From: Anaerolineae bacterium | Lineage (GTDB): Bacteria; Chloroflexota; Anaerolineae; Aggregatilineales; Phototrophicaceae | Direction of reading: 5' to 3' | Assembly (NCBI GenBank): GCA_013821665.1 | Contig: JACDGI010000010.1 | Coordinates: forward strand, 1 to 33,128 | DNA length: 33,128 nt | The notes under the pieces: model-generated | What the model saw: the letters and a program-made list of their open reading frames with translations, nothing else | What the model was told of the DNA's origin: nothing | Database searches by the model: none | Program-made: the position numbers and the translations under genes | Shown: positions 13,225 to 29,882 of the stretch, in pieces | How the letters are laid out: each line of letters begins with the position of its first letter | How positions within the stretch are numbered: the stretch's first letter is position 1

Positions 13225-14604
13225 TCACCACAGATCGCGTGCTTTCAACACCTCGCCAACTGCTTCCAAGTTTCGCAGTTCCGCCTCGGAATAATTCCGT
13301 GAGAGCAGTACACCGCTTGCCCCACCATCAAAAGCGGCATTCACACCATCCTTGATTTCGTCGGGTGTGATTTCCTTGCTCTTGCCACCATCACCCACGC
13401 CTACGCCGATCCCCGAATAGACTTTGCGTCCAGTATCGGCCACCAGATTTGCTGTCCATTGCTTGACGTATTCCGGCTTGAAACCCGCCATCGGTGCTTC
13501 ACTGCGTGGCGCGATGAACTCATTCAAATTAAGGATGGTCGCCAGCGCATTATAGGCACCATCCGGAGTCGCATCGGCCAATACGGCTTTCTGCCAGCTC
13601 TCGGCGAAGTTCGCAAACCGTGCCCCTGCGGGTGTGTGATACAAAACCGGCTTGAACCAATCCGCGTACGGCGCATACTCCGTCTGGTCGTACTGCGCCT
13701 TCGCGTATGGATTATAGGTATTAATCACCTGCCACACGCCGAAACCAACTTCTTTTTTCGGGTCAAAAAACTTGATCAGTCCCGAAACTTCGTGGTACAT
13801 ATCCTGATGTGCATCCAACCACATTTTCTCCCACATCAGCACTTCGGGATTCAACAGCAGATGCCGCAGCAGGGTCACAAACACCCCATCACGCGGACGT
13901 TCGCCTTTCCGCACGCCTTGAAGGAAGCGGTCTATTTTCTGGTAGCCTTCGATTGAGCGCTGCACATCCAAGCCGCGCGCCCGTGCCTCAGCTTTGAAAT
14001 ACTCATCAAAGCCGGTCGAACTATCCCCTCTAAAAATATCCATCAACGGACTGTGCCGCTCAATTCCCCATAGCATTCCAGTCAAATCATGGTTGCTAAA
14101 CCAGTCGCTAATTACCGACCGCCACCATGCGCGGTATTGCGGGTTCATCAATGAAGGTCGTGTCGCCAGCTTGCCCCAGTGATCACGATCTAAAAAGTGC
14201 GCGAACCCCGGTTGCCAGATCGAGCGGATGCTGGAAGCCGATGTTTCACAGTAATAGGGATAGACTTGCATCCCGCGTTTCTTCGCCGCTGGAATCACAT
14301 CGCGGAAGGTATCAAATCCTTTATAAAGCGGATCAGGCGCGGCAAACTTCTTATGAAAAGTGCCTTCGTAGAACTCAGGATCAGGTTCAAAGAAAGCCCC
14401 GCCTTGTAAATTATCCTTTTCGGCTACACCGTGGTCAGGGAAGCCATAAGGCGCTCGTCCCGCATTACCATAGCTCCACGACAATGCCGAAATCAGCAGG
14501 GCATTCACACCCGCTTTCTCTTGTAGAATGTCTAATACTTGCTCGACACCCTCATCAATAAAACTGATGGCACCAATTTGGATGCCTACCCATGTCTTGG
14601 TCAT
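13225..14604 (-). CDS. Putative glycoside-hydrolase-like TIM-barrel protein
   Basis: A 459-residue protein without signal peptide or membrane segment. The layout is that of a glycoside-hydrolase-like (beta/alpha)8 barrel: WVGIQIGAISFIDEG at strand 1, GMQVYPYYCETSAS, NPQYRAWWRSVISDWF, LTGMLWGIERHSP, and GASGVLLSRNYSEAEL near the end. Glu in GIERHSP and YYCETS are possible catalytic acids, by position only. I recall similar hypothetical glycosyl-hydrolase families in sugar-acid loci but cannot assign one. GTAGGGAAAC precedes the ATG. It follows the permease genes by 70 bases on the same strand and precedes a Gfo/Idh dehydrogenase, so it probably acts in the cytoplasm on an imported glycoside-like solute. 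Confidence 0.6.
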   Translation of the reverse strand: MTKTWVGIQIGAISFIDEGVEQVLDILQEKAGVNALLISALSWSYGNAGRAPYGFPDHGVAEKDNLQGGAFFEPDPEFYEGTFHKKFAAPDPLYKGFDTFRDVIPAAKKRGMQVYPYYCETSASSIRSIWQPGFAHFLDRDHWGKLATRPSLMNPQYRAWWRSVISDWFSNHDLTGMLWGIERHSPLMDIFRGDSSTGFDEYFKAEARARGLDVQRSIEGYQKIDRFLQGVRKGERPRDGVFVTLLRHLLLNPEVLMWEKMWLDAHQDMYHEVSGLIKFFDPKKEVGFGVWQVINTYNPYAKAQYDQTEYAPYADWFKPVLYHTPAGARFANFAESWQKAVLADATPDGAYNALATILNLNEFIAPRSEAPMAGFKPEYVKQWTANLVADTGRKVYSGIGVGVGDGGKSKEITPDEIKDGVNAAFDGGASGVLLSRNYSEAELRNLEAVGEVLKARDLW

Positions 14605-14674: not shown

Positions 14675-15616
14675 CTAGCTTCGTCCACGCAGTCTCGGAT
14701 CAAGGAAATCGCGCAGCCAGTCGCCTAGAATATTAATCGCCAACACAGTCAGCATGATCGCCAAACCGGGTAATACGGCCAACCACCATTTCCCAGCCAG
14801 CAGTTGGTCGCGGCTTTCCGCCAGCATTCCACCCCATGTTGGAACGGTCGGCGGCACACCCAATCCCAAAAATGATAGCGATGCTTCCGAGAGAATTACG
14901 CTCGCCACATTAAAGGAAGAAATCACGATTAACGGTGCCAGCACATTCGGGAAAATGCTGCGGAACATAATCCGCGTATGGCTGGCACCCATGCTGCGTG
15001 CTGCCTCAACATATTCTTTCTCACGCTGGCTGATGGTCTGACCACGGGCGATACGGGCATACGTCACCCATTGACCAACGCCCAGTACCAGCACCAGATT
15101 TGGGATACCCGGCCCCAGCACTACCAGTACCATAATCGTCAGCAAAATAAATGGGAACGCCAGTTGAATATCGGCCAGCCGCATAATTACATCGTCCAAC
15201 GCACCACCGTAGTAACCGGCGATAATGCCTAACGTTGTGCCCATCACACCGCCGATACCAACAGCGGTTACGCCCACCATCAGCGAAATTCGTGCGCCGT
15301 AAATCAGACGAGAAAGTACATCGCGACCCAAGCCGTCCGTCCCTAGAAGAAAACTGCTGTTGTCCAATCCAGCCGCTGGAAACGGCGGTAATAGTCTTAG
15401 AATAAGGGTCTGGCGATTGGGATCTTTCGGTGAAATTTGTGGACCAAGTACCGCACAAAAAACCACCGCTGCAAGAATGATAAGTCCCAGAACCGGCCAG
15501 CGGGCTTTGATTAAGCTAATACGTGCCCGTCGCCATACGGAAGATTGCGTTTGAACCGTCAGTACAACCGGAATTACCGGCGAAAGGGTTTTGGCTTGCA
15601 CCGTAGTTTCTCCCAC
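14675..15616 (-). CDS. ABC transporter permease, DppC/OppC type
   Basis: A 313-residue inner-membrane permease. A leader of about 35 residues precedes TM1 (WPVLGLIILAAVVFCAVLG). The DppC signature GTDGLGRDVLSRLIYGARIS lies before TM2, and the EAA loop that contacts the ATPase is EAARSMGASHTRIMFRSIFP. The start is GTG at 15616, five bases past the stop of the DppB gene, with AAGGG very close; a second GTG five codons on has GGGAG at better spacing and may be the true start. It pairs with the DppB-type permease and the binding protein. The cognate DppD/DppF ATPases are absent from the window. Confidence 0.9.
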   Translation of the reverse strand: MGETTVQAKTLSPVIPVVLTVQTQSSVWRRARISLIKARWPVLGLIILAAVVFCAVLGPQISPKDPNRQTLILRLLPPFPAAGLDNSSFLLGTDGLGRDVLSRLIYGARISLMVGVTAVGIGGVMGTTLGIIAGYYGGALDDVIMRLADIQLAFPFILLTIMVLVVLGPGIPNLVLVLGVGQWVTYARIARGQTISQREKEYVEAARSMGASHTRIMFRSIFPNVLAPLIVISSFNVASVILSEASLSFLGLGVPPTVPTWGGMLAESRDQLLAGKWWLAVLPGLAIMLTVLAINILGDWLRDFLDPRLRGRS

Positions 15617-15621
15617 AGCCC

Positions 15622-16599
15622 TTACCCCAGCCTTATCCGGGGGTCGAGCCGCGCATAAATAACGTCAACGAACAAATTCAAGCCAACAAAGATGAACGAG
15701 AACAAAATCACTGCCGCCTGTACCAGCGGAATATCACGCTGGGTAATCGCGGTAAAGACCAAGCGTCCAACACCCGGCCACGAAAACACCGTCTCAACAA
15801 TGACAACACCGCTTAGCAGGAAACCGAATTCCAAACCGAGCATGGTCACCACTGGAATAAGCGCATTACGAAAAGCATGTTTGAGGATGACAACCCGTTC
15901 GGCTAAACCTTTGGATCGGGCAGTCACCACATAATCCTGCGACAAAACTTCCAACATCGATGAGCGCACCAAACGTGCATTACGCGATAGCGAGAACACG
16001 CCAATGGTTATGCCGGGCAAAATAAGATGCCGTATAGCCTCAGGAATATTCCTGAAGGCGAGTTGTGTATCCCCCTTCAACAGCGGATCAAGCAGCGCCG
16101 TTCGCCCCGAAATGGGCAGCCAGCGTAACGCCAGTCCCACAAACAAAATCAGCATGATGCCTAGCCAAAAACTCGGCATCGACTGCCCAACCATTGCCAA
16201 CATCATGATGCCACCGTCAAGGGCTGTACCACGCCGCATGGCCGAAATAATCCCAATGGGAATCGCCAGCAGCGTCGAAAATAACATGGCAAAGAAAGTG
16301 AGTTCAATGGTAGCGGGCAGGCGTTCAAGTACCAGATCCAGCACGGGCGTTTTTGACCGCAGCGACATACCCATATCACCATGCAGCAAATTACCGATGA
16401 AAATCAGGTATTGTTCGGGCAGCGGTTTATCAAAACCCAACTTCGCTCGTACCTGAGCGATTTCTTCGTTACTGGCCCGTTCGTTCACATAGAGATAGGT
16501 GGGATCACCTGCCAGATGCAGACTAAAAAACGAAAGCATTGTCACACCTAAGATAACGATAATGGATTGCAAGAGGCGGCGTACTAAATACCGGCTCAT
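15622..16599 (-). CDS. ABC transporter permease, DppB/OppB type
   Basis: A 325-residue permease with six predicted membrane segments, starting with the typical MSRYLVRRLLQSIIVILGVT. The periplasmic loop (GDPTYLYVNERASNEEIAQV, GFDKPLPEQY) is diagnostic for DppB/OppB. The EAA-type loop is VTARSKGLAERVVILKHAFR. A TAGGAAAT ribosome site sits upstream of the ATG. The gap to the preceding binding-protein gene holds a strong hairpin that may favour higher expression of the binding protein. Substrates of this family include peptides, nickel, and oligosaccharides; the sugar-type enzymes nearby make a glycoside or glycopeptide plausible. Confidence 0.92.
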   Translation of the reverse strand: MSRYLVRRLLQSIIVILGVTMLSFFSLHLAGDPTYLYVNERASNEEIAQVRAKLGFDKPLPEQYLIFIGNLLHGDMGMSLRSKTPVLDLVLERLPATIELTFFAMLFSTLLAIPIGIISAMRRGTALDGGIMMLAMVGQSMPSFWLGIMLILFVGLALRWLPISGRTALLDPLLKGDTQLAFRNIPEAIRHLILPGITIGVFSLSRNARLVRSSMLEVLSQDYVVTARSKGLAERVVILKHAFRNALIPVVTMLGLEFGFLLSGVVIVETVFSWPGVGRLVFTAITQRDIPLVQAAVILFSFIFVGLNLFVDVIYARLDPRIRLG

Positions 16600-16704: not shown

Positions 16705-18294
16705 CTACGACGGTTTAAGGGTAACGTTATTGACGATGATTTGCTCATCGCGGCGTGCTTGCCATTCCACACGGTTGCTGACACCGTAGAAATCCGGTTG
16801 CATGTACAGGAAAATCCACGGCGGATCGTCATGCATCACCTGAAGCATCTGGTTAACGACATCTTTTTCCTTGGCGGGATCACGGATGTCAGCCAAGCTG
16901 TTCCACAACTCGAACCACTTGGGGTTGGCCCAACTGGTGTAGTTGGTGGAAGCATCTGGAGCCGAAATATCGGACATGTCGTAAATCGCGCTCCATGTAT
17001 CGCCACCGGTTCCAAGGAAGAACATCGGCCCCATCTTGTGTGTACGCACCAATGGGACGTATTCCGAACTCCAATCCTTGATTTCCAGATCGACCTTCAC
17101 ACCCACATCGGTCAGGTATTGGGCAATCGCCTGTACTACCGCTGCATCATTCAGGTAGCGACCACGAGGCCCCTGGAAGGTAATCTCGAAGCGTGTGCCG
17201 TCAGCCTTGAGCGGATAACCAGCAGCGTCGAGGAGTTCTCCGGCCTTCTTGGGATCATAAGGATAGGGTTCGATTGCGGGGTCGCCATTCGGATCATTGA
17301 CCATCGTGGCCGCACGTTTGCATTCTGTACCGAGTAATGTCTTGCAAATGGTCGGGACATCAATTGCGTACTGCAATGCGACGCGCACGTCACTCTTCTG
17401 GATCACGTCAGCACCCGGCAGACTAGCCATATCTGCGGCTAAGTTGAAACCGACATACATACGGCGTGTACCTTGAACGGCTTCGACCTTGGCGCTGTCC
17501 GAACTGTTGACGGCATCGACTTGATCTGCTGGTACGTTGGCAGCAATATCGACGTTGCCAGCCAAGAGTTCAGCTACGCGGGTCGAGTTTTCGGGGATAA
17601 CACGCCAGATCAGGCGGTCAAATGTTGGTGTGAACAGCTTAAAGCTTTCATTACGAGCAAGTTCAATGTAGTCATCCTTGACGCGAGTGACGAGTTTGTA
17701 TGGGCCAGAGGCAACTGGAGACTCAGCCGCTTGTTCCAGCGTCATCTTCTCGTATGAGTCTTTGCAATGAATACCAACCTCGGCGATCAAGCCCAGCGCA
17801 ATCGATTGATACTTCTTCATCACGATGGTGACGTTCAGCGGATCAACAACCTTAGCATCCGCATAGCTAATGGCATCCAAGACGAAGCCAGCCGTATTAC
17901 CCGTAAATTTATTATCGGGGTTGGCAGCACGTTGGAAGGTATAAGCCACATCTTCAGCCGTTAGTGCTTCACCATCTTGGCAGGTCAAGCCATCATTCAG
18001 CGTGAAGGTCATTTCTTTACCGTCGTCCGAAAGTTTATAGGACTTGGCAAGATAGGGGACAATCGAACCCTTATCGTCAACCGTATACAGTGAAGCGAAA
18101 ATGTGGTTGTCAATATTGGCTTCTGAACGTGAGTTCGAGTTTGATGGGTCAAACGTTTCAAGATCAACGCTCTGGGCAATTACCAACGTCTTTTCGTCCG
18201 GCGCAGTTTGTGCGTGAACGACCAACGGCAGGGCAGCCAGAAGCAAAACGGGAAACAACATGAGCTTACGAACTTTTAAGAAGTGACCGGGCAT
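16705..18294 (-). CDS. ABC transporter substrate-binding protein, family 5 (SBP_bac_5)
   Basis: A 529-residue extracytoplasmic solute receptor. Residues 1-29 are a signal peptide (MLFPVLLLAALPLVVHA then QTA); there is no lipobox cysteine, which is unusual if the host is a monoderm because the receptor would not be anchored. The mature part is a normal family 5 protein: LVIAQSVDLETFDPSNSNSR at the start, GLTCQDGEALTAEDVAYTFQ, then VASGPYKLV, and DPNGDPAIEPYPYDPKKAGE. AGGAG lies about 9 bases before the ATG. The family binds peptides, nickel or oligosaccharides. Gene order binding protein, DppB, DppC is standard, but no ATPase follows; a shared ATPase elsewhere is likely. Confidence 0.92.
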   Translation of the reverse strand: MPGHFLKVRKLMLFPVLLLAALPLVVHAQTAPDEKTLVIAQSVDLETFDPSNSNSRSEANIDNHIFASLYTVDDKGSIVPYLAKSYKLSDDGKEMTFTLNDGLTCQDGEALTAEDVAYTFQRAANPDNKFTGNTAGFVLDAISYADAKVVDPLNVTIVMKKYQSIALGLIAEVGIHCKDSYEKMTLEQAAESPVASGPYKLVTRVKDDYIELARNESFKLFTPTFDRLIWRVIPENSTRVAELLAGNVDIAANVPADQVDAVNSSDSAKVEAVQGTRRMYVGFNLAADMASLPGADVIQKSDVRVALQYAIDVPTICKTLLGTECKRAATMVNDPNGDPAIEPYPYDPKKAGELLDAAGYPLKADGTRFEITFQGPRGRYLNDAAVVQAIAQYLTDVGVKVDLEIKDWSSEYVPLVRTHKMGPMFFLGTGGDTWSAIYDMSDISAPDASTNYTSWANPKWFELWNSLADIRDPAKEKDVVNQMLQVMHDDPPWIFLYMQPDFYGVSNRVEWQARRDEQIIVNNVTLKPS

Positions 18295-18383: not shown

Positions 18384-19436
18384 TTAAACAATACGGTCAT
18401 ATTGACCAAATTCAGGTGGCAAAACACTTGCAATGGTTACACTCCGTGCCTCGCGACTCGAAATCGCACAGGCTTCAACCATTGCTAAAGACATCAGGTG
18501 ATCTCTACCGCTGCATTGCAACGGCTCACCATCAATCACACAATTGAGGAATGCTTCTAGTAGTCCACTGGTTTCGGTAATCCAAATCTCATGTGGGGGC
18601 AGCGGAACAGCATTCAATGCAGAGTCACTCGGCTTCGCAAAATAAAGATCACCAAATTGATCTTTCTGGCTAATAATCCCGTTGGTGCAATCGGTGCGCC
18701 ATTCAAAGCGGGGTTCGGCCCAACCGCTTTGCCATGTCCCCTGATAATTGACGATCATGCCGTCATTAAACGTAATTAGTGCGGCAACGTTTGCGTCACT
18801 TTGATACACACTCCATGAAGGATTCCATGTTTTCGCTTGGATCAATACCGGCTCTTGCCCATAGATGTAACGCATCAGGTCAAAATGATGGATGGATTGC
18901 TCCCACAACATCGGTTGATCCATTGTGAGCGGATATTTGTTGAGGTCAGGTCGGTTGCCATCACGATAGCGTTCATACGTAAAACGCCCGAAGCTTGCCT
19001 TACCGACAATGCCATCATTCAACAACCGCATCACTTCTTTAGTGACGGCCAGATAACGAAAGTTCAACCCAACCATCAATGGCACTTTCGCTGCTTCGGC
19101 AATCCCAACAAGTTTTGCGGCTTCCTCCACTGTCAGTGCCAACGGCTTCTCAATCAACATGGGAATATCGCGCTCTGAGGCAGCACGAATTTGACTCTCA
19201 CGTCCGATTGGCGGGTTGGCGAGGATTAAGGCCTGTGCATCAGGTAGGGCTGCGATTGCTTCTTCAGGCGACTTAAATGTTGGTCGTTCACCGTACTGCG
19301 CAGCCATTCGTTCGCAAGCCGCCGGATTAGGGTCAGCATAGGCAATAATCTCGCAGCGTGGTGAACGCGTCAGCACTTCTGCCCAATAACGCCCACGCAC
19401 ACCTAAACCTGCCAATATCACTTTTAAGGGTGTCAC
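18384..19436 (-). CDS. Gfo/Idh/MocA-family oxidoreductase
   Basis: A 350-residue NAD(P)-dependent sugar-type dehydrogenase. The Rossmann start is VILAGLGVRGRYWAEVL; IEKP at 95-98 is the family hallmark; WEQSIHHFDLMRYIYGQEP supplies the conserved His. The start is GTG, and it overlaps the stop of the epimerase gene by four bases (GTGA), implying translational coupling. The same operon begins with the GntR gene and continues into the ABC transporter. It differs strongly from the second Gfo/Idh protein at 12097, so the pathway may need two sugar-oxidation steps. Substrate unknown. Confidence 0.9.
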   Translation of the reverse strand: MTPLKVILAGLGVRGRYWAEVLTRSPRCEIIAYADPNPAACERMAAQYGERPTFKSPEEAIAALPDAQALILANPPIGRESQIRAASERDIPMLIEKPLALTVEEAAKLVGIAEAAKVPLMVGLNFRYLAVTKEVMRLLNDGIVGKASFGRFTYERYRDGNRPDLNKYPLTMDQPMLWEQSIHHFDLMRYIYGQEPVLIQAKTWNPSWSVYQSDANVAALITFNDGMIVNYQGTWQSGWAEPRFEWRTDCTNGIISQKDQFGDLYFAKPSDSALNAVPLPPHEIWITETSGLLEAFLNCVIDGEPLQCSGRDHLMSLAMVEACAISSREARSVTIASVLPPEFGQYDRIV

Positions 19437-20392
19437 GATGTCATAACCTCTTTGTTTTGTCCCTGAAGTGCTTGGCGGATGCCCTCTGCAAACGGTGTCC
19501 AGCTCTGAAAGCCGGTTTCTTCCTGCAAACGCTGGTTACTTAAATAACCTCGCCGCGTCAGCATAGGCATGTTTGGATCACTGCCTTGTTGTATATCCAG
19601 TTCAACATCCGGCATCAACGATTGAATAACCTTCGCAATATCCAACGGCGATAGCACCTGCTGCGAGGCCACGTTATAAAGCGCGTGATGCAGCATAGGT
19701 TGCTTCAACAATGCTGCAACTGCTGCACCAATATCAGGCGCAAACGTCCAATCGCGCGCCGGATCATCCTGATAAACAGTCACTTTGCCCGTTTGTGTCG
19801 CTTGCCGCACCAACCGACCAGCTAAACTGACGCGTGGACGGGTCGAACGCGGCTGTTCGTCCGGCCCATAAATATTACTGAGGCGAAAGGTTGCCACATC
19901 GCGTCCATATTCTCCGCGCAAGGTGGCGACGAGCGATTCCATTGTCTGCTTAGCCACCGCATACAAACCATTTGGCGAAGTCAGATCATTTTCACTAACC
20001 ACACCCGGTTCTGTTGCTGCATAAACGGCGCTTGAACTGATACTCAATACCCGTCGCACTGAATGGGCTTGTGACCATTCGAGAACGGCTAAAAGCGGAT
20101 CAAGATTGGCGCGAAAATTGGCTTCTGGTGTTTGATCGAGTTCTTCTGGTGAGGCAGTAATGGCGGCACCATGAATCACTGCATCCACTTCAACCGACGG
20201 CAAATTCGCGCTGTCGGTCTGGATAAACTGGATGTTGTCACCCCATCGCTTTAGCCAGCTTGCCTGTAAAACCTCGTCAAACTGGCGATCAACCGCGATA
20301 ACGGCCCAACCTTCATTCAACAATGCTTGCGTGATATTGCTGCAAACAAAACCGCCAGCACCTGTTACCATCACACGTGGAGAAGCGTTCAT
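19433..20392 (-). CDS. NAD-dependent epimerase/dehydratase (extended SDR)
   Basis: A 319-residue extended short-chain dehydrogenase/reductase. The N-terminal NAD motif is VTGAGGFVCSNI; the third glycine of TGxxGxxG is replaced by Cys17, an unusual change at the pyrophosphate. The active site is SISSSAVY with Tyr142 and Lys146 in LYAVAKQTM. GADEQPRS-type sequence (YGPDEQPRS) and PARDWTFAPDIG are typical of sugar-nucleotide or uronate dehydrogenases and epimerases. The ATG overlaps the GntR stop by four bases (ATGA), and its own stop overlaps the next GTG, so three genes are translationally coupled. It is probably a catabolic sugar-acid epimerase or dehydrogenase here; the substrate is inferred only from context. 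Confidence 0.88.
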   Translation of the reverse strand: MNASPRVMVTGAGGFVCSNITQALLNEGWAVIAVDRQFDEVLQASWLKRWGDNIQFIQTDSANLPSVEVDAVIHGAAITASPEELDQTPEANFRANLDPLLAVLEWSQAHSVRRVLSISSSAVYAATEPGVVSENDLTSPNGLYAVAKQTMESLVATLRGEYGRDVATFRLSNIYGPDEQPRSTRPRVSLAGRLVRQATQTGKVTVYQDDPARDWTFAPDIGAAVAALLKQPMLHHALYNVASQQVLSPLDIAKVIQSLMPDVELDIQQGSDPNMPMLTRRGYLSNQRLQEETGFQSWTPFAEGIRQALQGQNKEVMTS

Positions 20393-21066
20393 ATGTCGCC
20401 ACCTTCCCCATCATCATGCCAGCCTTCAGCAATTAATTCGCCGGAGGCTGCGACGTGGGCTTCCATAAGCTCAACCGCTTTTTGGACTTCACCGGCTTCA
20501 ATCGCGTCAATAATTGGCACGTGGTTATAGGCAATTTTCTTAAGGTCGCTGTTGCGTCGATTGAGTAATGCCATCACCTGACGCACCCTCATCGACACCA
20601 CATTCCAACTGGTCAGCAGCAAACTGTGTCCACTGAGTTCAATCAAGGTGTCATGGAATTCACGGTCAATCTGGTTAACCTGTTTCAGGTCGCCTGCTTC
20701 CGCCGCTGCTAACATAGCTTCAAAGCATTTCCGTAATCTAATCACGTGCTTTGAATTGTCTTGCCCGATAATCCGTCGAATAGCAAAGGTCTCCAAAACG
20801 CTACGGAGGCTATAGAGTTCTTCAATATCCGTCTTCGTCAGCCGCCGGACAGTCGTGCCATGATAGGGGACTGTTTCGGCTAAACCCTCAGTACTCAGGA
20901 TTTGCAGAGCCTCACGCAGTGGTGCGCGGCTTACACCGAGACTGGCTGCTAAGTCTGTCTCGATGAGCTGCTGGCCGGGTTTAAATTCGCCTGTGATGAT
21001 GGCCTCGCGTAGTGCATCCAGTACGCGGTCACGAAGCGAACGATTTTCAATATGGTTCAAAGTCAT
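20389..21066 (-). CDS. GntR-family regulator, FadR/FCD type
   Basis: A 225-residue regulator from the chosen start. Residues 8-75 are the winged HTH (LRDRVLDALREAIITGEFKP, then ETDLAASLGVSRAPLREAL and TVPYHGTTVRRL). The rest is the helical FCD ligand domain with metal-site features (DREFHDTLIELSGH and a late NHVPIIDAIEAG). The ORF track uses TTG at 21093; I prefer ATG at 21066 because a plausible minus-strand -10 (TATAAG at 21113-21108) would leave only about eight bases before the TTG. It heads the minus-strand operon and is divergent from the DUF4438 genes. A perfect ATTGTCGACAAT lies between, so it probably represses both arms until an organic acid ligand binds. Confidence 0.9.
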   Translation of the reverse strand: MTLNHIENRSLRDRVLDALREAIITGEFKPGQQLIETDLAASLGVSRAPLREALQILSTEGLAETVPYHGTTVRRLTKTDIEELYSLRSVLETFAIRRIIGQDNSKHVIRLRKCFEAMLAAAEAGDLKQVNQIDREFHDTLIELSGHSLLLTSWNVVSMRVRQVMALLNRRNSDLKKIAYNHVPIIDAIEAGEVQKAVELMEAHVAASGELIAEGWHDDGEGGDI

Positions 21067-21123
21067 AATTGGATTTTTCAAATTGCTTGACAAGCCATAG
21101 GTGCAAACTTATAATCGCCAGAA

Positions 21124-21135
21124 ATTGTCGACAAT
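21124..21135. promoter_or_regulatory. Perfect palindrome, probable GntR (FCD) operator
   Basis: ATTGTCGACAAT is perfectly symmetric and fits the short TTGT-NN-ACAA type bound by FadR-like GntR regulators. It overlaps the -35 zone of the likely GntR promoter and lies just upstream of the plus-strand promoter zone (GGATTATAGA near 21159-21168). A further half-site CGACAAG follows at about 21143-21149. Confidence 0.65.
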
Positions 21136-21201: not shown

Positions 21202-22068
21202 ATGCCTCTTGCAACCAATGAATCACAACTTGTAGAGATTGCTGTTACGGGGAATATCAGCCCACCTACCTTACGTTATCCGGGTTATACGCTGGATGAT
21301 AAAGGTGTGGGGCGGGTGCTGCCGGGGATGGCCGGCGTGGTGTATAACGCACGAGTCGGTGACGCGGCGTTTGGTTGGGCAGGTGACCATGTTGAGCCGG
21401 GTGTTTCGATAGCCAACCCTGACAACGCTGCCGAATTTGCCTTGCACTATTTGACGTGTATGGGCAATAAAGCAGTAGTTACCAGCGGCATGGGTAAAGG
21501 TGCAGAAGGTATCGTCACAGGTGAACACGCGCGTCTGCTCGTGGATTTCTCGCCGGATGTGCATGACCTATTGTGCGTAGGCGATTCGATCCAGATTATT
21601 GCCTGCGGACGCGGTTTAGAGCTCACCGATTATCCTCAAATTACGCTCAAGAAATCCAGTCCACAGCTTATCAACGGTATTCCGTTTGAAGTCATCAGTG
21701 ATACCAAAATTCGCGTGCCGGTAACAACGGTTTTACCACCGAGAATTATGGGGTCAGGTGCCGAACTGAACTCGGAATATGTTGACCAAGATTTGATGTC
21801 GGGCGACCGGGCATTGATGGCCGAGCTAGGCATTGACCAGATGAAATTAGGTGATTTGGTGGTCATACCGGATGCCGACCACCGCTTCGGACGCACTTAT
21901 CGCAAAGGCGCAGTGACGATTGCGCTGTGCATTCATGGCGACTCGGTGATGATCGGGCATGGGCCGGGGATATTGACCTTGATGACCTGCCCCGAATCCT
22001 GTATCGAATGGATTATCGACCCCAAGGCTAACATTGCAAATTACTTCAATATTCGGGAGATGGCATGA
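21202..22068 (+). CDS. DUF4438-family protein, first of a tandem pair
   Basis: A 288-residue soluble protein that I recognise as DUF4438, a family without a firmly assigned activity. Shared blocks with its neighbour are LPGMAGVVYNARVGDAAFGW, HVEPGVS, LTCMGNKAVVTSGMGKGAEG, ITLKKSSPQL, VPVTTVLPPRIMGSGA, MKLGDLVVIPDADH and GHGPGILTLMT. The conserved Gly-rich VITG/IVTG and GHGPG segments suggest a ligand pocket, but no known catalytic signature is visible. AAGGA lies about 10 bases before the ATG. The gene opens the plus-strand arm opposite the GntR regulator and its ATGA overlap with the second copy shows tight coupling. I infer a catabolic or substrate-binding role from context only. Confidence 0.85.
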   Translation: MPLATNESQLVEIAVTGNISPPTLRYPGYTLDDKGVGRVLPGMAGVVYNARVGDAAFGWAGDHVEPGVSIANPDNAAEFALHYLTCMGNKAVVTSGMGKGAEGIVTGEHARLLVDFSPDVHDLLCVGDSIQIIACGRGLELTDYPQITLKKSSPQLINGIPFEVISDTKIRVPVTTVLPPRIMGSGAELNSEYVDQDLMSGDRALMAELGIDQMKLGDLVVIPDADHRFGRTYRKGAVTIALCIHGDSVMIGHGPGILTLMTCPESCIEWIIDPKANIANYFNIREMA

Positions 22069-22946
22069 ACGTCCGAACCAATTCTGACAAGCTGGTTTCT
22101 GTTTCGGTAATGGGGCTGATTGCTTCGCCCGGTTTCCCCGGCTTACCTGCCGAGCCTTATCGGTTGGATTCCAACGGTAAACCCTTCTTACTGCCGACTT
22201 ACGGTGGCATCGTTTATAACGTGTCAATCGGTGACTCGGCTTTCGGATGGCTGGCTGACACCATTCACCCCGGTGTGAGTATTTCACTGAAGGATGATGT
22301 GGGCAATCGTGGGCTCAATTTGTTCGCCTGTGTTGGCAATGTGGCAATGGTGATGAGTGGCGATGCTAAGGGGATCAAGGGTGTGGTCACGGGAAAGTCG
22401 GGACGTTTTTCGGAACAGGTCATCATCCATTTTGATAAAGAAGCTCGCAAGAAGATGGCGATTGGCGACAAGATCAATATCAAGTCGATTGGTGTAGGTA
22501 TGGAGCTGGCTGACCATCACGACATTAAACTCAAAAGCTGTTCACCGGACATTCTTGAGAACTTAGAAGTCACTACAGGGTCGGATGGTAAGTTGAACGT
22601 GCCGGTGGTGGGTGTGGTTCCACCACATCTGTTGGGTTCGGGTGCAGGGTTGACCAGCGAAGGCGGTTCACTGCACATCCAAACGGCTGACAAAGACGCA
22701 CTAAAAGAAGCCAAACTAGACGACCTTAAATTGGGTGATGTGGTGGCGCTGTTGGATTACGACAGCAGTTGGAACCACGGCTATTTACGGGGTGCCATTG
22801 GTATCGGTGTGATCGGTCAAGGGGACAGCCCACGCGCTGGACATGGCCCCGGCATCACTTTACTGATGACCTCACCGCAGACCGGCATTAACCCGATGGT
22901 CACACCGGGCGTCAACCTCAAGAGTGTATTTAATCTTCAAGATTAA
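22065..22946 (+). CDS. DUF4438-family protein, second of a tandem pair
   Basis: A 293-residue paralogue of the upstream gene, sharing its order of motifs: LPTYGGIVYNVSIGDSAFGW, HPGVSI, FACVGNVAMVMSGDAKG, IKLKSCSPDILEN, VPVVGVVPPHLLGSGAG, LKLGDVVALLDYD and GHGPGITLLMT. Identity by eye is moderate, so the duplication is old and the two subunits may form a hetero-oligomer or act on different substrates. The ATG overlaps the previous stop (ATGA). A family B hairpin and a 70-base gap separate it from the VOC gene. Function unknown. Confidence 0.85.
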   Translation: MNVRTNSDKLVSVSVMGLIASPGFPGLPAEPYRLDSNGKPFLLPTYGGIVYNVSIGDSAFGWLADTIHPGVSISLKDDVGNRGLNLFACVGNVAMVMSGDAKGIKGVVTGKSGRFSEQVIIHFDKEARKKMAIGDKINIKSIGVGMELADHHDIKLKSCSPDILENLEVTTGSDGKLNVPVVGVVPPHLLGSGAGLTSEGGSLHIQTADKDALKEAKLDDLKLGDVVALLDYDSSWNHGYLRGAIGIGVIGQGDSPRAGHGPGITLLMTSPQTGINPMVTPGVNLKSVFNLQD

Positions 22947-23016: not shown

Positions 23017-23481
23017 ATGGACAAACCATACATCAAGCACATGGCATTTGCGGTCAAAGATGCTAAAGCCGCGCTCAAGACTTATCAAGATTTGTTGAGT
23101 GTGGGGCTAGAAGCGAAGGTCGATGACTTCCCCAAGTCGCGCAACCGCGTGGCGCAATTCTGGGTAGGCGATGTGGAATACCAGTTGTGCCAATCGCTAG
23201 ATGAGGGTGGACGCTTCGACAAGTGGATTAAAGAACGAGGTTATGAAGGACTGCACCACATTTGTTACGCCGTCCCCAATATTGACCAAGCGCTGGCGGA
23301 CGCGCAAGCAAAAGGCGCAACTCTCAAAGAGTGCAGTGCGTGTAAGGTCAAAGGCAGCCACGTTCACCCTGAAGGTTGGGTAGCATTCCTCGACCAAGAA
23401 GCGGGCGGGATTGAACTGGAATTGATGCAGGTTTATACACCTGAAGAACTGCAAGAGTATAAGAAGGTCAAGGGAATTTGA
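23017..23481 (+). CDS. VOC-family protein (methylmalonyl-CoA epimerase/glyoxalase-like)
   Basis: A 154-residue vicinal-oxygen-chelate protein with two beta-alpha-beta-beta-beta modules. Metal ligand candidates match the epimerase pattern: His8 in IKHMAFAV, Gln56 in VEYQLCQ, His80 or His81 in GLHHICYAV, and Glu133 or Glu135 in GGIELELMQ. The GLHHICYAVPNIDQAL segment most resembles methylmalonyl-CoA epimerase, but related glyoxalases and dioxygenases share it. AGAGAG precedes the ATG. It is three bases from the Ldh-family gene, so the two are co-translated; an epimerase plus a dehydrogenase acting on the same hydroxy acid would make sense. The exact substrate is not determinable. Confidence 0.82.
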   Translation: MDKPYIKHMAFAVKDAKAALKTYQDLLSVGLEAKVDDFPKSRNRVAQFWVGDVEYQLCQSLDEGGRFDKWIKERGYEGLHHICYAVPNIDQALADAQAKGATLKECSACKVKGSHVHPEGWVAFLDQEAGGIELELMQVYTPEELQEYKKVKGI

Positions 23482-23484
23482 GCC

Positions 23485-24552
23485 ATGCCGATTACCTTGG
23501 TTCGCGTTCCGGTTGATGAACTTGAAAAATTTAGCGTTAATGTGTTCCAAGCGTTGGGGGTCTCGGAGGATGAGGCGCGGCGCTGTACACGCGGTTTAAT
23601 CGAGAGCGAACTACACTGCTTGCCGGGGCAAGGACAGGGTGTACGACGATTACCTGTTTACCGCGAGCGTATTACGAATGGGTGGATTATACCCGGTGCG
23701 CCATATGAGATTGTGAAGGAAAGTCCGGCGTTGGCGCTTGTTGATGGTCACAACGGACTGGGTTCGGTGGTGGCGCAGAAGTCAATGGAACTGGCAGTAC
23801 AGAAAGCCAAAATTAGCGGGATAGGGACGGTGATCGTCCGAAACAGCACGCACTTTGGTTCAGCCGCAGTGCCGGGGCGACTGGCGCTTGAACAAGATTG
23901 CATCGGAATTGTGATGACGAACGCAGGGCCGGAAATGGCTCCGTGGGGAGCAGCGAGCGGTGTTGTTGGCACCAATCCGTGGGGGATTCTTGCGCCAACA
24001 GGTGGCGATTTCCCAGTGGTGCTGGACATCGCACTGACGACTGCTGGAAAAGGGATGATGCGCTGGTACGAACGCGAGGGCAAAAAGATGCCGCTCGATT
24101 GGGCGCTGACACCTGACGGTTACGAGACCGATGATCCCAGTGCAGCGATGCAAGGTTTCTTGTTGGGCATTGGGCAGCACAAAGGTTACGGATTGTCGAT
24201 GATGACCGACGTAATTACCGGTGTTCTGGGTGGTGGTGGTTATGGTTTAGCACCCTACTCCAATCCCGCCAAGCAAGATGTTTCGCACCTATTCATAGCG
24301 CTGGATATTGAGTGGTTTATGCCCATGAGCGAGTTCAAGGCGCGGATTGACGACTTTATCAAACAGATTAAATCGGCCAAGAAACGACCGGGATTCGATG
24401 AAATTCTCGTACCGGGTGAGTTGGATTACCGGCGCGAACTGGAGTATCGCAAAGATGGAGCCAAGTTGGATGCGGTGGTTTTTGATGAACTGGCTGTGCT
24501 GGCGAAAGATTTAAACATCGACTTCCCGTTTGAGCGGGAGGTAGTGGCCTGA
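23485..24552 (+). CDS. Ldh-family (type-2 malate/lactate) oxidoreductase
   Basis: A 355-residue NAD(P)-dependent dehydrogenase of the malate/L-sulfolactate/ureidoglycolate (AllD) type. The catalytic His is His123 in VRNSTHFG; later landmarks are TNAGPEMAPWG, GTNPWGI, PVVLDIALTTAGKGMM and GQHKGYGLSMMTDVITGVLG. The usual DSHG of the N-terminus is changed (GQGQGVRRLP), so a helper histidine is missing. The family oxidises 2-hydroxy acids such as malate, sulfolactate or ureidoglycolate. Its stop overlaps the next start by one base (TGATG). With the allantoinase-like gene further down a ureide route is possible, but allantoate and ureidoglycolate-specific genes are not recognised. Confidence 0.88.
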   Translation: MPITLVRVPVDELEKFSVNVFQALGVSEDEARRCTRGLIESELHCLPGQGQGVRRLPVYRERITNGWIIPGAPYEIVKESPALALVDGHNGLGSVVAQKSMELAVQKAKISGIGTVIVRNSTHFGSAAVPGRLALEQDCIGIVMTNAGPEMAPWGAASGVVGTNPWGILAPTGGDFPVVLDIALTTAGKGMMRWYEREGKKMPLDWALTPDGYETDDPSAAMQGFLLGIGQHKGYGLSMMTDVITGVLGGGGYGLAPYSNPAKQDVSHLFIALDIEWFMPMSEFKARIDDFIKQIKSAKKRPGFDEILVPGELDYRRELEYRKDGAKLDAVVFDELAVLAKDLNIDFPFEREVVA

Positions 24553-25274
24553 TGTCCATTTCCCAAACTTTGACACGGCCTTTAGCGGCGCGAATTGCTG
24601 CGCTGCCGGAAGTGGTCGAACACACGCATAATCCGCCTATTCCTGAAGGCGTGATTGAGGCGGCTATCCAAGCACTGAAAGACGGCAAGACACATTATAC
24701 CGACCGTCCCGGCATTCTTGGCCTGCGCAAGTGGGTGACGGACATGCTTCAGAAGCAATATGCCGTGACGCTGAAACCGGATGCCGTCACCATTACTTGC
24801 GGGGCGACGGAAGCACGGTTCGTCGTTATCAAACGGCTGGTGAAGGCTGAAGGTACGATTTTATGCGTCGGTGACAGCCAAGCAATTGAAGGCGCAGCAC
24901 AATTGGTGGGCGCGAAAATCGTCTCTGAGATGACTGATGTTTCGGCTATCAAGCTGGTTTATGCTACGCCTGAAGATCCTGTTGAAACGCTGCGACCGAT
25001 TTTGGAGCAAGCCAAAGTACATGGCTGGTGGGTGATGTGGGATGTTAATCAGCAGCCCTCTCTCTCAAACAGTACATTCCATCCAGCACAGGATGAGGCA
25101 CTGGCGGCGAAGGTGATTAGCATCGGCAGCTTCTCGGACGTGATGCCGGGGTGGCGCGTGGGTTGGATGGCGGGTTCGGAGATGGCCGATAAGCTGCGTG
25201 CGTATAAGCAGAGCATGACGATTTGCAGCACCAGCATCTCGCAGTGGGCGGGGATGGGGTTGGTGGAAGAATGA
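24552..25274 (+). CDS. Truncated aminotransferase-like protein lacking the PLP lysine
   Basis: Only 240 residues, against about 395 in the intact homologue two genes on. It keeps the class I fold order: HYTDRPGILGLRKWV, ITCGATEARFVVIKRL, VMWDVNQQ and IGSFSDVMPGWRVGW. The Schiff-base lysine of SFSK is Asp196 (SFSD), and the NPTG asparagine region reads TPEDPVE. The reading ends at SISQWAGMGLVEE, exactly where the partner has ATISQWAGIAAL, so the C-terminal domain is missing; a family A repeat begins six bases later. It cannot be an ordinary transaminase. It could be a decaying paralogue or a catalytically inactive partner subunit. The 1-base overlap with the Ldh gene shows it is still embedded in the operon. 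Confidence 0.8.
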   Translation: MSISQTLTRPLAARIAALPEVVEHTHNPPIPEGVIEAAIQALKDGKTHYTDRPGILGLRKWVTDMLQKQYAVTLKPDAVTITCGATEARFVVIKRLVKAEGTILCVGDSQAIEGAAQLVGAKIVSEMTDVSAIKLVYATPEDPVETLRPILEQAKVHGWWVMWDVNQQPSLSNSTFHPAQDEALAAKVISIGSFSDVMPGWRVGWMAGSEMADKLRAYKQSMTICSTSISQWAGMGLVEE

Positions 25275-25362: not shown

Positions 25363-25371
25363 TTGGGGAAA

Positions 25372-26559
25372 ATGAATAACCTCAACCCGAATATTCCAGA
25401 GGCAGTACGGGCGGTGGCGTCGGATGGAACGCAGCTTCGGTATGCGTTGATGGAGCTTTCTGCGCAGTACAAGGACGCGATTGCGCTGGGTCGTGGCGAT
25501 CCTGATTTGGCGACACCCGAACACATTTTGGCGGCTGTCGAAGAGTCGATTATCCAGCAAAAAACAGGGCTGACACCGGTAGCAGGGATGCCTGAAATAC
25601 GAGAGGCGATTGCCAAGAAGTTCCAGCGCGAGAACGGGCTGTCGGTTTCGGCTGAGAACGTGATGGTGACGACGGGCGGGCAAGAAGCGCTTTACCTGTT
25701 GATGCAAACCCTGCTTGACCCCGGTGATGAGGTGCTGGTACCTGATCCGCGTTACACGTCTTACGACGAGGCGATTGAGAGCGCGGGCGGAAAAATGGTG
25801 ATGGTTCCAACTGACCAAGTTGATGCTTTCAACCTGCGACCGGAAGCGGTGGAGGCGGCGATTACGCCCAAAACCAAGGCGCTGTTGATCATCACACCGA
25901 GCAATCCGACCGGCGGAATTGTGACCGAGGAACGGCTGCGAGAAATCGCGGCGATTGCTATTAAGCACAATCTGATCGTGATTTCGGACGAGATTTACGA
26001 GAAGTTTGTCTACGATGACTGGAAGCACTTTAGCATCGGGTCGCTGCCGGGGATGGAAGACCGCACGATCACACTGAATGGGTTTTCCAAGACGTACGCA
26101 ATGACTGGATTTCGAATCGGATTTGTGGCCGCGCCCAAGAACTTCATCGACGCGATGACCAAGGTGAAGGCCATTACGAGTGGGCCGGTGGCGACGATTT
26201 CCCAATGGGCTGGGATAGCGGCTTTGACGGGATCGCAAGCACCGATTGAAGAGTTTCGACAGATTTACAGCGAGCGACGGCGTTTTATGATGGACGGCCT
26301 GAGCGCGATGGGTTTGACTTACAGCGATCCACGCGGGGCCTTCTTCCTGTGGACGGATTGTTCGTCGATTGGTGTGCATTCGACCGAGCTTTCTTACTTA
26401 CTGCTGAAAGAAGCGCAGGTGTTGATTTTCCCCGGTACAGGCTTCGGTGAGAATTGGGGCGGATACCTGCGAATCAGCCTTTTGCAGACGACTGATTTGC
26501 TGCGAGAAGCGCTTGACCGGATGAAGCCGGTGGTGGAAAAGTATCGGGCACTTCGCTAG
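25372..26559 (+). CDS. Class I/II pyridoxal-phosphate aminotransferase
   Basis: A complete 395-residue fold type I transaminase of the aspartate aminotransferase class. PLP-binding features are intact: TTGGQEALYLL, Asn178 in TPSNPTGG, Asp206 and Tyr209 in ISDEIYEKF, the Schiff-base Lys240 in LNGFSKTYAMTGFRIGF, and the substrate-carboxylate Arg in GYLRISL. The ORF track starts at TTG 25363; I use ATG 25372, 9 bases after AGGAGG. It should transfer an amino group between an amino acid and a 2-oxo acid, but donor and acceptor cannot be read. It is a homologue of the degenerate gene upstream. The stop is TAG and a family D repeat follows. Confidence 0.92.
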   Translation: MNNLNPNIPEAVRAVASDGTQLRYALMELSAQYKDAIALGRGDPDLATPEHILAAVEESIIQQKTGLTPVAGMPEIREAIAKKFQRENGLSVSAENVMVTTGGQEALYLLMQTLLDPGDEVLVPDPRYTSYDEAIESAGGKMVMVPTDQVDAFNLRPEAVEAAITPKTKALLIITPSNPTGGIVTEERLREIAAIAIKHNLIVISDEIYEKFVYDDWKHFSIGSLPGMEDRTITLNGFSKTYAMTGFRIGFVAAPKNFIDAMTKVKAITSGPVATISQWAGIAALTGSQAPIEEFRQIYSERRRFMMDGLSAMGLTYSDPRGAFFLWTDCSSIGVHSTELSYLLLKEAQVLIFPGTGFGENWGGYLRISLLQTTDLLREALDRMKPVVEKYRALR

Positions 26560-27090: not shown

Positions 27091-28380
27091 ATGATTGATG
27101 CGGTGGTGTTGTTGCAGGAATTGGTGAAAATTCCATCACCGAATTTGCCGGGGGATACACGAGCGATTGCGGCTTATATTGCCGAGGTGATGCGCGAGGC
27201 GGGGTGCATGGTGAAGATGCTTGCACCGGAGCAAAAACCAGAGGCGCAAAGTGTGGTGGCGACATTTGGTCAAGGTGCGCCGGTGATTATGCTGCACGCA
27301 CATATTGATACGGTGCCGATTGCGGTGAATGAGGCACAGCGCTGGAGTGTCGATCCGTATGCAGCGGTGATTCAAGAAGGGAAACTTTACGGCAAAGGCA
27401 GTGTGGATGATAAAGCGCCGTTGGCCGCGATGATGGCGGTGATTTTGGAGAAAGCGCATCCTCTCCCCCTAACCCCCTCTCCGCTGCGCAGCGAGAGGGA
27501 ACCAGAAAATGCAAAACCTCTTTCTCAACACGGAAACGAGGGGGAACAAATAGAGGGGACGTTAGTGCTGGTGGCGGCGGCGGAAGAGGAAACAGGTGGA
27601 GTGTTAGGTACCAAATGGCTGGCAGAAAATGGGCATCTGCCAATGTGTGATTTTATTGTGGTGGGCGAGCAAACGCATAACCATGTAGCGACAGCGCATA
27701 AGGGTGTGATGCGTGCGACGGTTCGCGCTACTGGACGGTCGGTTCATGCGACCAACCCTGACCGGGGTGTGAATGCGATCACAGCGATGGCGAAGGCAGT
27801 TCTGGCGCTGGATGCTTACCACAAGGAACTGGCAACGCGACCGCATCCGATTGTGGGCGTTCCGACTTGCAATGTGGGCGTGATTCAAGGTGGGAGTACA
27901 GCGAACGCGGTGCCGGATAGCTGCGTGGTTTATCTCGACCGTCGAATGGTTCCCGGTGAAAATCCAGCGGTGGTGCAGGATGAAATGCGAGCGGTAATCG
28001 ATGGAGTCGATGCAGGTGAGGCAACGCTCAGCATTGGCGAGTTCCAAACCTCAAACTGGTTTGAATCGACGGCAGTATCAGCGTTGGCGCAGACATTTTT
28101 GGGATGTGTGGAGGGGGAGTTCAGAAAAACCCTCGCCCCCCAGCCCCCTCTCCCTCATGGCGAGGGGGAGTCAGAAAATCCTTATTATCCGGGGCCGATT
28201 GGGTATTTGCCGGGAAGTGATGCCAAACATCTGACAGGCGTGACGCGCGGTGAGATGATCATCTTCGGGCCGGGGAGCTATGAGGTGGCTCACGCGTTTG
28301 ACGAATATGTGGATGTGAAAGAGTTTGCAAGTACAGTGAATATCCTACGGGCATTTGTGGAACATACAATACGGGATTAA
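27091..28380 (+). CDS. M20-family metallohydrolase (ArgE/DapE type) with two repeat insertions
   Basis: A 429-residue zinc hydrolase that would cleave an N-acyl, N-carbamoyl or dipeptide-type amide. Metal and catalytic residues are in place: His71 and Asp73 (HAHIDTVP), Asp106 (GSVDDK), Glu165 and Glu166 (AAEEETGG), Glu193 (VVGEQ) and His401 (AHAFDEY). Two low-complexity segments break the fold between conserved blocks: about 123-155 (PLPLTPSPLRSERE and following) and about 343-363 (TLAPQPPLPHGEGESEN). Both are encoded by family C palindromes, in frame. Without them the protein would have about 375 residues, the usual size. The ATG has no strong ribosome site. Its TAA stop lies inside the next family A repeat. 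Neighbours suggest a step in degrading an amide- or ureide-linked compound. Confidence 0.88.
   Translation: MIDAVVLLQELVKIPSPNLPGDTRAIAAYIAEVMREAGCMVKMLAPEQKPEAQSVVATFGQGAPVIMLHAHIDTVPIAVNEAQRWSVDPYAAVIQEGKLYGKGSVDDKAPLAAMMAVILEKAHPLPLTPSPLRSEREPENAKPLSQHGNEGEQIEGTLVLVAAAEEETGGVLGTKWLAENGHLPMCDFIVVGEQTHNHVATAHKGVMRATVRATGRSVHATNPDRGVNAITAMAKAVLALDAYHKELATRPHPIVGVPTCNVGVIQGGSTANAVPDSCVVYLDRRMVPGENPAVVQDEMRAVIDGVDAGEATLSIGEFQTSNWFESTAVSALAQTFLGCVEGEFRKTLAPQPPLPHGEGESENPYYPGPIGYLPGSDAKHLTGVTRGEMIIFGPGSYEVAHAFDEYVDVKEFASTVNILRAFVEHTIRD
27458..27558 (+). repeat. Family C palindromic repeat inserted in frame, copy C1
   Basis: CTCTCCCCCTAACCCCCTCT then CCGCTGCGCAGCGAGAGGG: a near-perfect hairpin at 27475-27499 within about 100 bases of insert. 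A further GAGGGGGAAC-ended arm follows. Translated as PLPLTPSPLRSERE, in a loop between conserved M20 blocks. Confidence 0.75.
28117..28176 (+). repeat. Family C palindromic repeat inserted in frame, copy C2
   Basis: CCCTCGCCCCCCAGCCCCCT then CTCCCTCATGGCGAGGGGGA. It is bracketed by two copies of GAGGGGGAGTyCAGAAAA, which look like a duplicated junction. Translated as TLAPQPPLPHGEGESEN. C1 has the related GAGGGAACCAGAAAA. Confidence 0.8.
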
Positions 28381-28481: not shown

Positions 28482-29882
28482 GTGGAATTTGAAACCCTGA
28501 TTATCAACGGCGACGTGGTGACCGAAACAAGAATCGAACAACTCGACATCGGTATTCGTGGAGGGCAGATTGCAGCCCTGCTGGCTCGTGGAACAGCGGT
28601 GACAGCCAACGAAGTGATCGATGCAGAGGGGGAGCTGGTCATTCCGGGCGCGATTGACATCCACTTCCACTGCCGTGCGCCAGCGTATCCACAGCGCGGG
28701 GATTTCGCGACGGAAACCCGCGCGGCTGCGGCTGGCGGCGTGACAACCATTTTCGAGATGCCAATTTCCAAACCGTGCTGCGCGACCGGTGATATTTTCC
28801 GAGCACGAAAGGCACTGGGCGAGGCGGATTCGTATGTGAACTTCGCGTTGTATGGCGCACCGGGTTTGCTGGATCGCAAAGAAATCGCGGATATGGCGAA
28901 CGAAGGCGCAATTGGTTTCAAGATCTTTATGACCGGCGCACCGGCAGGACGCAACGATGAATTCGAGGGCTTGTGTTTGCCGCAGGTGCCGGAACTTTAT
29001 CAAGCGATGAAGCTGGTGGCGGAGACCGGATTGGTATGCGTGGTTCATGCCGAGAATGACCAACTTTTGGAGTGGCATACGGCGCAAATGATGGCCGCTA
29101 AACGTAATGATGTGGCGGCACACGGCGAATCCCGTCCACCGCATGTAGAGGCGCTGGCGGTGGCGACATTGTTAACGCTGAACCAAACGGCAGGGATGCA
29201 ACTGCATATCGCGCACATGACATCCAAAGAGACGTTGGATGTATTCCGGCAGTTCAAGCAAGCTGGCGCAAAAGCCACAGCGGAGACCTGCCCCCAATAT
29301 TTATTTTTCACCGAGGCAGATATGGAGCGCGTAGGGCCGTATGCCAAGATTAATCCACCGCTGCGGAAGCAAGAAGATGTCGAGGCGTTGTGGGGTGGCA
29401 TTGAAGATGGCATGTTAATGGTGGTGACGACTGATCACTCGCCGTTTACAGTCGAGGAAAAGGAACGGGCGAGGACGGACATCTGGCGAACGCCGCCGGG
29501 TGCACCGGGTGTCGAGGAATTGGTACTGGGAATGATGGATGCAGCGCTTAAAGGACGGCTGACGATTCCACAAGCAGTGGCATTGGTTAGTACCAACGGC
29601 GCGAAACGCTTCGGGATTTATCCGCAAAAAGGTGCGATTGCAGTAGGGACAGACGCGGATATTGTGATTTATGATCCGCAGCAGACGACGACGATTCAGC
29701 CGGACATGCTGTTCAGTAAGGCGAAGGATTGTGACAAGCTGTACGCGGGAATGACCTTCCAAGGCAAGGTCATGCGGACGATTGTGAACGGGACAACCGT
29801 GTTCGTGGATGGCGAAGTGGTGGGCAAACGTGGCGGGGGAAAATTCGTCCGACCCAATGCGAACCTCGTGCAGGAACTTTAA
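28482..29882 (+). CDS. Allantoinase/hydantoinase-type amidohydrolase
   Basis: A 466-residue binuclear zinc cyclic amidohydrolase. Ligands are all visible: His61 and His63 in GAIDIHFHCRAP, the carboxylated Lys147 in IGFKIFM, His189 in VVHAEN, His245 in LHIAHMTS (or His242), and Asp318 in TTDHSPF. The ending TTDHSPFTVEEKE is closer to allantoinases than to classical D-hydantoinases, where GSDHC is typical. It would open a cyclic ureide or imide ring such as allantoin, hydantoin or dihydroorotate; which one is unknown. The start is GTG preceded by GGAAAAC. A family A repeat precedes it and another precedes the next gene. The length is normal. Confidence 0.88.
   Translation: MEFETLIINGDVVTETRIEQLDIGIRGGQIAALLARGTAVTANEVIDAEGELVIPGAIDIHFHCRAPAYPQRGDFATETRAAAAGGVTTIFEMPISKPCCATGDIFRARKALGEADSYVNFALYGAPGLLDRKEIADMANEGAIGFKIFMTGAPAGRNDEFEGLCLPQVPELYQAMKLVAETGLVCVVHAENDQLLEWHTAQMMAAKRNDVAAHGESRPPHVEALAVATLLTLNQTAGMQLHIAHMTSKETLDVFRQFKQAGAKATAETCPQYLFFTEADMERVGPYAKINPPLRKQEDVEALWGGIEDGMLMVVTTDHSPFTVEEKERARTDIWRTPPGAPGVEELVLGMMDAALKGRLTIPQAVALVSTNGAKRFGIYPQKGAIAVGTDADIVIYDPQQTTTIQPDMLFSKAKDCDKLYAGMTFQGKVMRTIVNGTTVFVDGEVVGKRGGGKFVRPNANLVQEL

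Follow-up and report, generated by a model that had tools for sequence, protein, structure and literature searches.

Among proteins of the DUF4438 family, TM1086 of Thermotoga maritima (PDB 3DCL, 3N99) is a single-copy member with one chain type in its crystals. A literature search on DUF4438 and PF14505 recovered no function, and for TM1086 it returned a crystallization paper only; this agrees with Pfam and with the preliminary description of the DNA considered here, wherein the family was said to have no settled function. On the regulatory side, the closest described system comes from Pseudomonas aeruginosa, where the FCD-GntR repressor PrpR controls the methylcitrate operon; the predicted site of PrpR is ATTGTCGACAAT, and the protein binds the region carrying that site in gel shifts (PMC9765439). 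Among catabolic systems, the nearest points of comparison are the allantoin/hydantoin clusters, with AllB, AllD and PuuE, and ectoine utilization, which combines an M24 hydrolase (EutD/DoeA) with an AstE-type deacylase (EutE/DoeB).

The window, i.e., the whole stretch of 33,128 nucleotides that was analyzed, is an entire contig of an 8.1-Mb draft genome; among named genomes, its closest relatives are MAGs of Chloroflexota, the majority from Anaerolineae. It carries two DUF4438 genes, here D1 and D2 (Table 1), and there are none elsewhere in the genome. The two open reading frames and the 4-base overlap described at 21202-22946 are present, the overlap being ATGA, and the pair does head an operon as proposed, D1 and D2 being the first two genes downstream of a divergent FCD-GntR gene. 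The architecture of the family is complete in both, with PF14505 followed by PF20999 in one chain (PF14505, 155.6 bits in D1 and 168.5 in D2 against a cut-off of 24.9; PF20999, 148.6 and 130.2 bits against 27). TM1086 is the same two-domain protein, matched over its full length in phmmer searches by D1 (8e-62) and D2 (6e-64). The AlphaFold2 model of D1 (pLDDT 87.4) shares its fold, with a TM-score of 0.90 to 3DCL; the model of D2 has a pLDDT of 84.6, and the likeness of D2 to TM1086 rests on the sequence match. A search of PDB folds with the D1 model found only TM1086 itself to be similar, and because this is the sole similar solved fold, any reaction class for DUF4438 is a guess.

Table 1. 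Features of the DUF4438 locus and its surroundings, in window coordinates.
Feature	Position	Strand	Remarks
Second Gfo/Idh/MocA oxidoreductase	12097..13164	-	
459-aa protein	13225..14604	-	no Pfam match; conserved with the cluster; Devosia homologue weakly GHL10 (glycosyl-hydrolase-like)
Opp/Dpp-type ABC permease C	14675..15616	-	
Opp/Dpp-type ABC permease B	15622..16599	-	
Family-5 ABC solute-binding protein	16705..18294	-	peptide/nickel type
Gfo/Idh/MocA oxidoreductase	18384..19436	-	
NAD-dependent epimerase/dehydratase family protein	19433..20392	-	
FCD-family GntR regulator	20389..21093	-	divergent from D1; PF00392 64.3 bits, PF07729 95.4 bits
ATTGTCGACAAT palindrome	21124..21135		proposed GntR operator, between gntR and D1
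D1, A-type DUF4438 (PF14505 + PF20999)	21202..22068	+	288 aa; putative catalytic subunit
ATGA overlap	22065..22068	+	D1 stop/D2 start
D2, B-type DUF4438	22065..22946	+	293 aa; partner without ancestral site residues
VOC-superfamily protein	23017..23481	+	methylmalonyl-CoA epimerase-like, below that family's cut-off
Ldh_2-type dehydrogenase	23485..24552	+	sulfolactate/malate/ureidoglycolate dehydrogenase relatives
ATs, truncated aminotransferase paralogue	24552..25274	+	without PLP lysine
AT, intact class I/II aminotransferase	25363..26559	+	with PLP lysine
M20 deacylase	27091..28380	+	ArgE/DapE-like
Cyclic amidohydrolase	28482..29882	+	hydantoinase/allantoinase-like
M14 zinc carboxypeptidase	29971..31719	+	
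M24 peptidase	31895..32980	+	creatinase/prolidase-like

D1 and D2 show 38% identity from end to end and have in common the motifs G[VI]VYN..[VI]GD.AFGW, GSGA, LKLGD and GHGPG. To that extent the preliminary description, which saw two diverged copies sharing all the main motifs, holds; however, it overlooked that the two are not equivalent, for four other motifs differ between D1 and D2 (DHVEPG to DTIHPG, VDQD to GSLH, FGR to WNH and IHGDS to GQGDS), precisely at positions that are invariant in the rest of the family. Residues were counted by column over 194 sequences, comprising 14 single-copy, 83 D1 and 7 D1' rows together with 90 second-gene rows, with positions in D1 numbering unless D2 numbering is stated (the primes denote a second pair type, introduced below). 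H63, E65 and D197 are invariant in the 104 single-copy (TM1086 included), D1 and D1' rows, whereas not one of the 90 second-gene rows has all three together; D195, H245 and H253 show the same invariance among the single-copy and D1 rows, where R231 is nearly invariant too. The D1 of the window retains D62, H63 and E65, H109, D195 and D197, R231, H245 and H253, and six of these (H63, E65, D195, D197, H245 and H253), the A-type residues, are present in TM1086 as well.

The corresponding positions in the D2 rows read C/T63, H65, S195, H197, H231, Q245 and mostly Y253, with nine family-conserved sites altered in all, and the D2' rows mostly have R, Q and E at 63, 65 and 197. In the D2 of the window the six A-type residues have become T, H, S, H, Q and H, and since they are not all kept, the protein was filed as B type; in its own numbering it has T66, H68, S202, H204, S234, H238, Q252 and H260. 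Its pattern T/C66-H68-S202-H204-S234-H238 (D2 numbering) recurs in 80 of 83 rows. Further, comparison with the two nearest relatives gives D1 and D2 alike a dN/dS of about 0.03, a value that is approximate given a dS of about 1 or above; both genes are thus under strong purifying selection, and D2 is not decaying. These patterns suggest that D1 probably keeps the active site of the family, with D2 probably being a maintained partner that lacks that site.

The pairing itself is widespread and regular. A scan of named genomes yielded 80 loci, distributed over Chloroflexota, Alphaproteobacteria (e.g., Devosia, Rhizobium, Aureimonas and Microvirga), Gemmatimonadota, Deinococcota and one Acidobacteriota MAG, with D1 followed by D2 in every one of them and an exact 4-bp overlap in 72. 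The 4-bp ATGA is the most frequent overlap in bacterial operons and is by itself unremarkable for that reason, but the recurrence of both pair and overlap across phyla places the pairing beyond chance. Within the same GTDB family, each of the 14 genomes with the domain (that of the window included) has exactly two adjacent copies; likewise, 19 of 20 genomes reached via the pair loci have exactly two, the remaining one having a single detected copy and a partly masked D2. DUF4438 is rare in Alphaproteobacteria, being found in 1 of 385 genomes, namely the known carrier on which the sample was centered, and the patchy occurrence of the pair fits a horizontal transfer of the whole module. A tblastn search against plasmids gave no match. 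A second type of pair, D1'/D2', adjoins Gfo/Idh genes in another Chloroflexota family. Across both kinds of cluster, no B-type gene without an adjacent A-type gene was encountered in any locus read. The single-copy genes have diverse neighbors with no common function apparent. One of them lies beside LarB, LarC and LarE-like genes and a glutamine cyclotransferase (locus L073:247-5718); a link to lactate racemase (Lar) was dropped, because the arrangement was seen in one genome only and unrelated genes surround the other single-copy genes examined.

In phylogenetic analysis, one branch (support 99/95) separates D2 and D2' from a group uniting D1, D1' and the single-copy proteins, TM1086 among them, which thereby stands apart from every second-gene protein. 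On the simplest reading, one old duplication would have given rise to a B lineage that is found only beside an A gene. Taken together, a pair that is obligatory and old, purifying selection on both genes and the loss of invariant residues from D2 make it the best reading, and in our estimate a moderately probable one, that the two proteins form one obligate hetero-oligomeric DUF4438 enzyme, with D1 as its A and D2 as its B subunit; a D1 that keeps the site next to a maintained D2 without it is what one would expect of a catalytic/non-catalytic heteromer. The preliminary description had arrived at a hetero-oligomer from the strict coupling of the genes; the proposal survives on the strength of the sequence asymmetry and the obligate pairing, whereas the overlap alone is too common to carry it. 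The same asymmetry would be compatible with a physical A/B complex whose activity depends on A. In such a complex, D1 would be the catalytic subunit, with H63, E65 and D197 forming its putative active site along with D195, R231, H245 and H253, and D2 would complete or regulate the oligomer, which in single-copy members (TM1086, for example) may be built from one kind of chain.

The strongest competing reading, which we regard as rather unlikely, is that each protein is a homo-oligomeric enzyme in its own right, the two catalyzing different, probably consecutive, steps, with D2 having acquired a new site after the duplication. It draws on the nearly invariant residues that D2 has of its own (H68, S202, H204, S234, H238 and often C66), on the equal constraint acting on the two proteins and on the single chain type in the crystals of the solved relative. 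The absence of a natural D1-D2 fusion from the loci read counts against the heteromer. However, separate enzymes sit poorly with a B-type gene that, in the loci read, never occurs without an A-type neighbor in two kinds of cluster, and the D2' proteins as well as the D2 of loci L081 and L084 carry other residues at the same positions; the shared trend is therefore the loss of ancestral residues rather than the gain of one new site. A non-enzymatic role, in which the DUF4438 proteins would be a metabolite-binding or chaperone pair, i.e., a carrier or sensor, with D2 as a variant of altered ligand specificity, appears distinctly improbable: it would account for the absence of a described function from the literature searched, for the lack of an enzymatic fold resembling TM1086 and for a D1 model that is beta-rich with no recognizable nucleotide or cofactor motif, but invariant H, E and D that span several phyla in single-copy and A-type proteins would be expected of catalysis or metal binding rather than of a carrier. 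Finally, a recent tandem duplication for dosage with no division of labor, which the adjacency and homology of D1 and D2 might bring to mind, is scarcely conceivable, being ruled out by the tree and excluded by the 38% identity, the separate old clades and the systematic site differences.

The regulator of the window has both a GntR and an FCD domain, and a palindromic candidate operator, ATTGTCGACAAT, lies in the divergent promoter region; nowhere else in the 8.1-Mb genome does the palindrome recur. The core of 10 bp, TTGTCGACAA, is found in exact form upstream of D1, at a distance of no more than 260 bp, in 38 of the 80 loci; 1.37 Mb contained 39 copies, all but one of which are these. A looser TTGTN(1-2)ACAA is seen in 42 of the 80 upstream regions, that of the window among them, where shuffling gave a mean of 0.5. 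Since relatives do not provide independent evidence, the separate observations are fewer than these counts suggest; the palindrome is nonetheless common to different phyla. Several of the remaining loci have versions of TTGTCGACAA with one mismatch. Among the loci with the second pair type (L085-L091), four have the exact TTGTCGACAA, two of these near a GntR gene. The conserved palindrome between gntR and D1 thus supports the GntR control that had been proposed for the operon, and we envisage that the regulator would bind it and control the operon in response to a pathway intermediate. The parallel with PrpR extends to an FCD-GntR protein and an identical palindrome upstream of an operon, but the enzymes encoded differ, and an operator in common need not mean that the effector is the same. 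An assignment as a methylcitrate (prp) operon was rejected, as methylcitrate-cycle genes are absent among the genes beside GntR and the operator sequence alone is shared. A gene for a citrate synthase domain joined in one chain to an N-terminal MerR/excisionase-type helix-turn-helix lies 12 kb away (7997-9193, minus strand).

The nature of the pathway can be approached through the neighbors of the pair, which were counted in the 47 loci with full flanks. The most constant are an Ldh_2 dehydrogenase (43/47), an aminotransferase (42/47) and a family-5 solute-binding protein (41/47), followed by VOC (35/47), GntR (34/47) and hydantoinase-like amidohydrolase genes (26/47), with the M24, Gfo/Idh, epimerase and 459-aa proteins each in about half of these loci. 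Rhizobial clusters add an M32 carboxypeptidase, an AstE-type deacylase, a close relative of PuuE allantoinase, a DHDPS-family aldolase and another amidohydrolase. The small-molecule catabolism suggested at the outset is consistent with this context, which fits a small peptide-like molecule, the type of substrate being read from the neighbors. From these we infer that the cluster imports and dismantles an amide-rich, peptide-like or cyclized amino-acid derivative. A peptide-type ABC importer would bring in the N-acylated, cyclized or peptide-like compound, the amidohydrolase, deacylases and peptidases would open and trim it, and Ldh_2, the VOC protein and the aminotransferase would convert the released amino acid. 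The A/B enzyme would then take one early step, most likely hydrolytic or isomerizing, on a carbonyl or amide compound.

Comparison with described pathways brings out both likeness and difference. With the allantoin/hydantoin clusters the window shares the hydantoinase/allantoinase-like and Ldh_2 superfamilies, and the counterpart of PuuE is a close relative in the Devosia cluster; however, the window also encodes a peptide importer as well as several peptidases, none of which allantoin calls for, and allantoin degradation was set aside on scores of 331.2 bits for AllB (TIGR03178, cut-off 357.85) and 151.3 for AllD (TIGR03175, cut-off 496.2). Ectoine utilization has an M24 protein in common with the window, and an AstE/AspA-type deacylase and an aminotransferase in common with many relatives of the cluster, but no other ectoine-specific gene was recognized in the cluster, and the M24 protein scores 54.5 bits against the 613 needed for EutD (TIGR02993). 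Ergothioneine utilization was likewise rejected, with 335.8 bits against 650 for the ErtD equivalog (NF058539).

A second adjacent pair of paralogues is found further down the operon. The PLP lysine is absent from all 30 relatives of ATs with a residue at that position and present in 88 of 88 intact aminotransferases, and ATs is conserved directly upstream of the intact AT in related loci, suggesting that it is likely a pseudoenzyme partner of AT. As a further pair in which one member lacks key residues, AT/ATs makes the D1/D2 heteromer more plausible. A more elaborate version, which we consider unlikely as a whole, would have an undescribed heteromer with two sites, namely H/E/D/D in A and a His-rich site of its own in B, working in an undescribed, horizontally spread pathway for a peptide-like compound, with AT/ATs as a second catalytic/pseudoenzyme pair of that pathway; the His-rich reading derives from the changes of H63 to C/T and of E65, D197 and R231 to H. 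Elsewhere in the cluster, the M20 and M14 genes contain in-frame GC-rich palindromic segments (27457-27555, 28123-28197 and 31456-31512) that share CCCCCTCTC-type arms, resemble protein-coding palindromic repeats and appear to be missing in relatives such as locus L100. An IS4-type transposase lies near the cluster (10790-11971, minus strand).

Structures of DUF4438 proteins have been available since 2008, and the family still lacks a function. Distinguishing an A lineage that keeps the invariant site from a B lineage that lost it and is always paired indicates the chain, the residues and the partner that merit testing. Through its conserved operator, the cluster likewise offers a handle on the inducer and thereby on the substrate. 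If the proposal is true, the presence in one operon of two catalytic/degenerate pairs, DUF4438 A/B and AT/ATs, would represent an unusual catabolic design.
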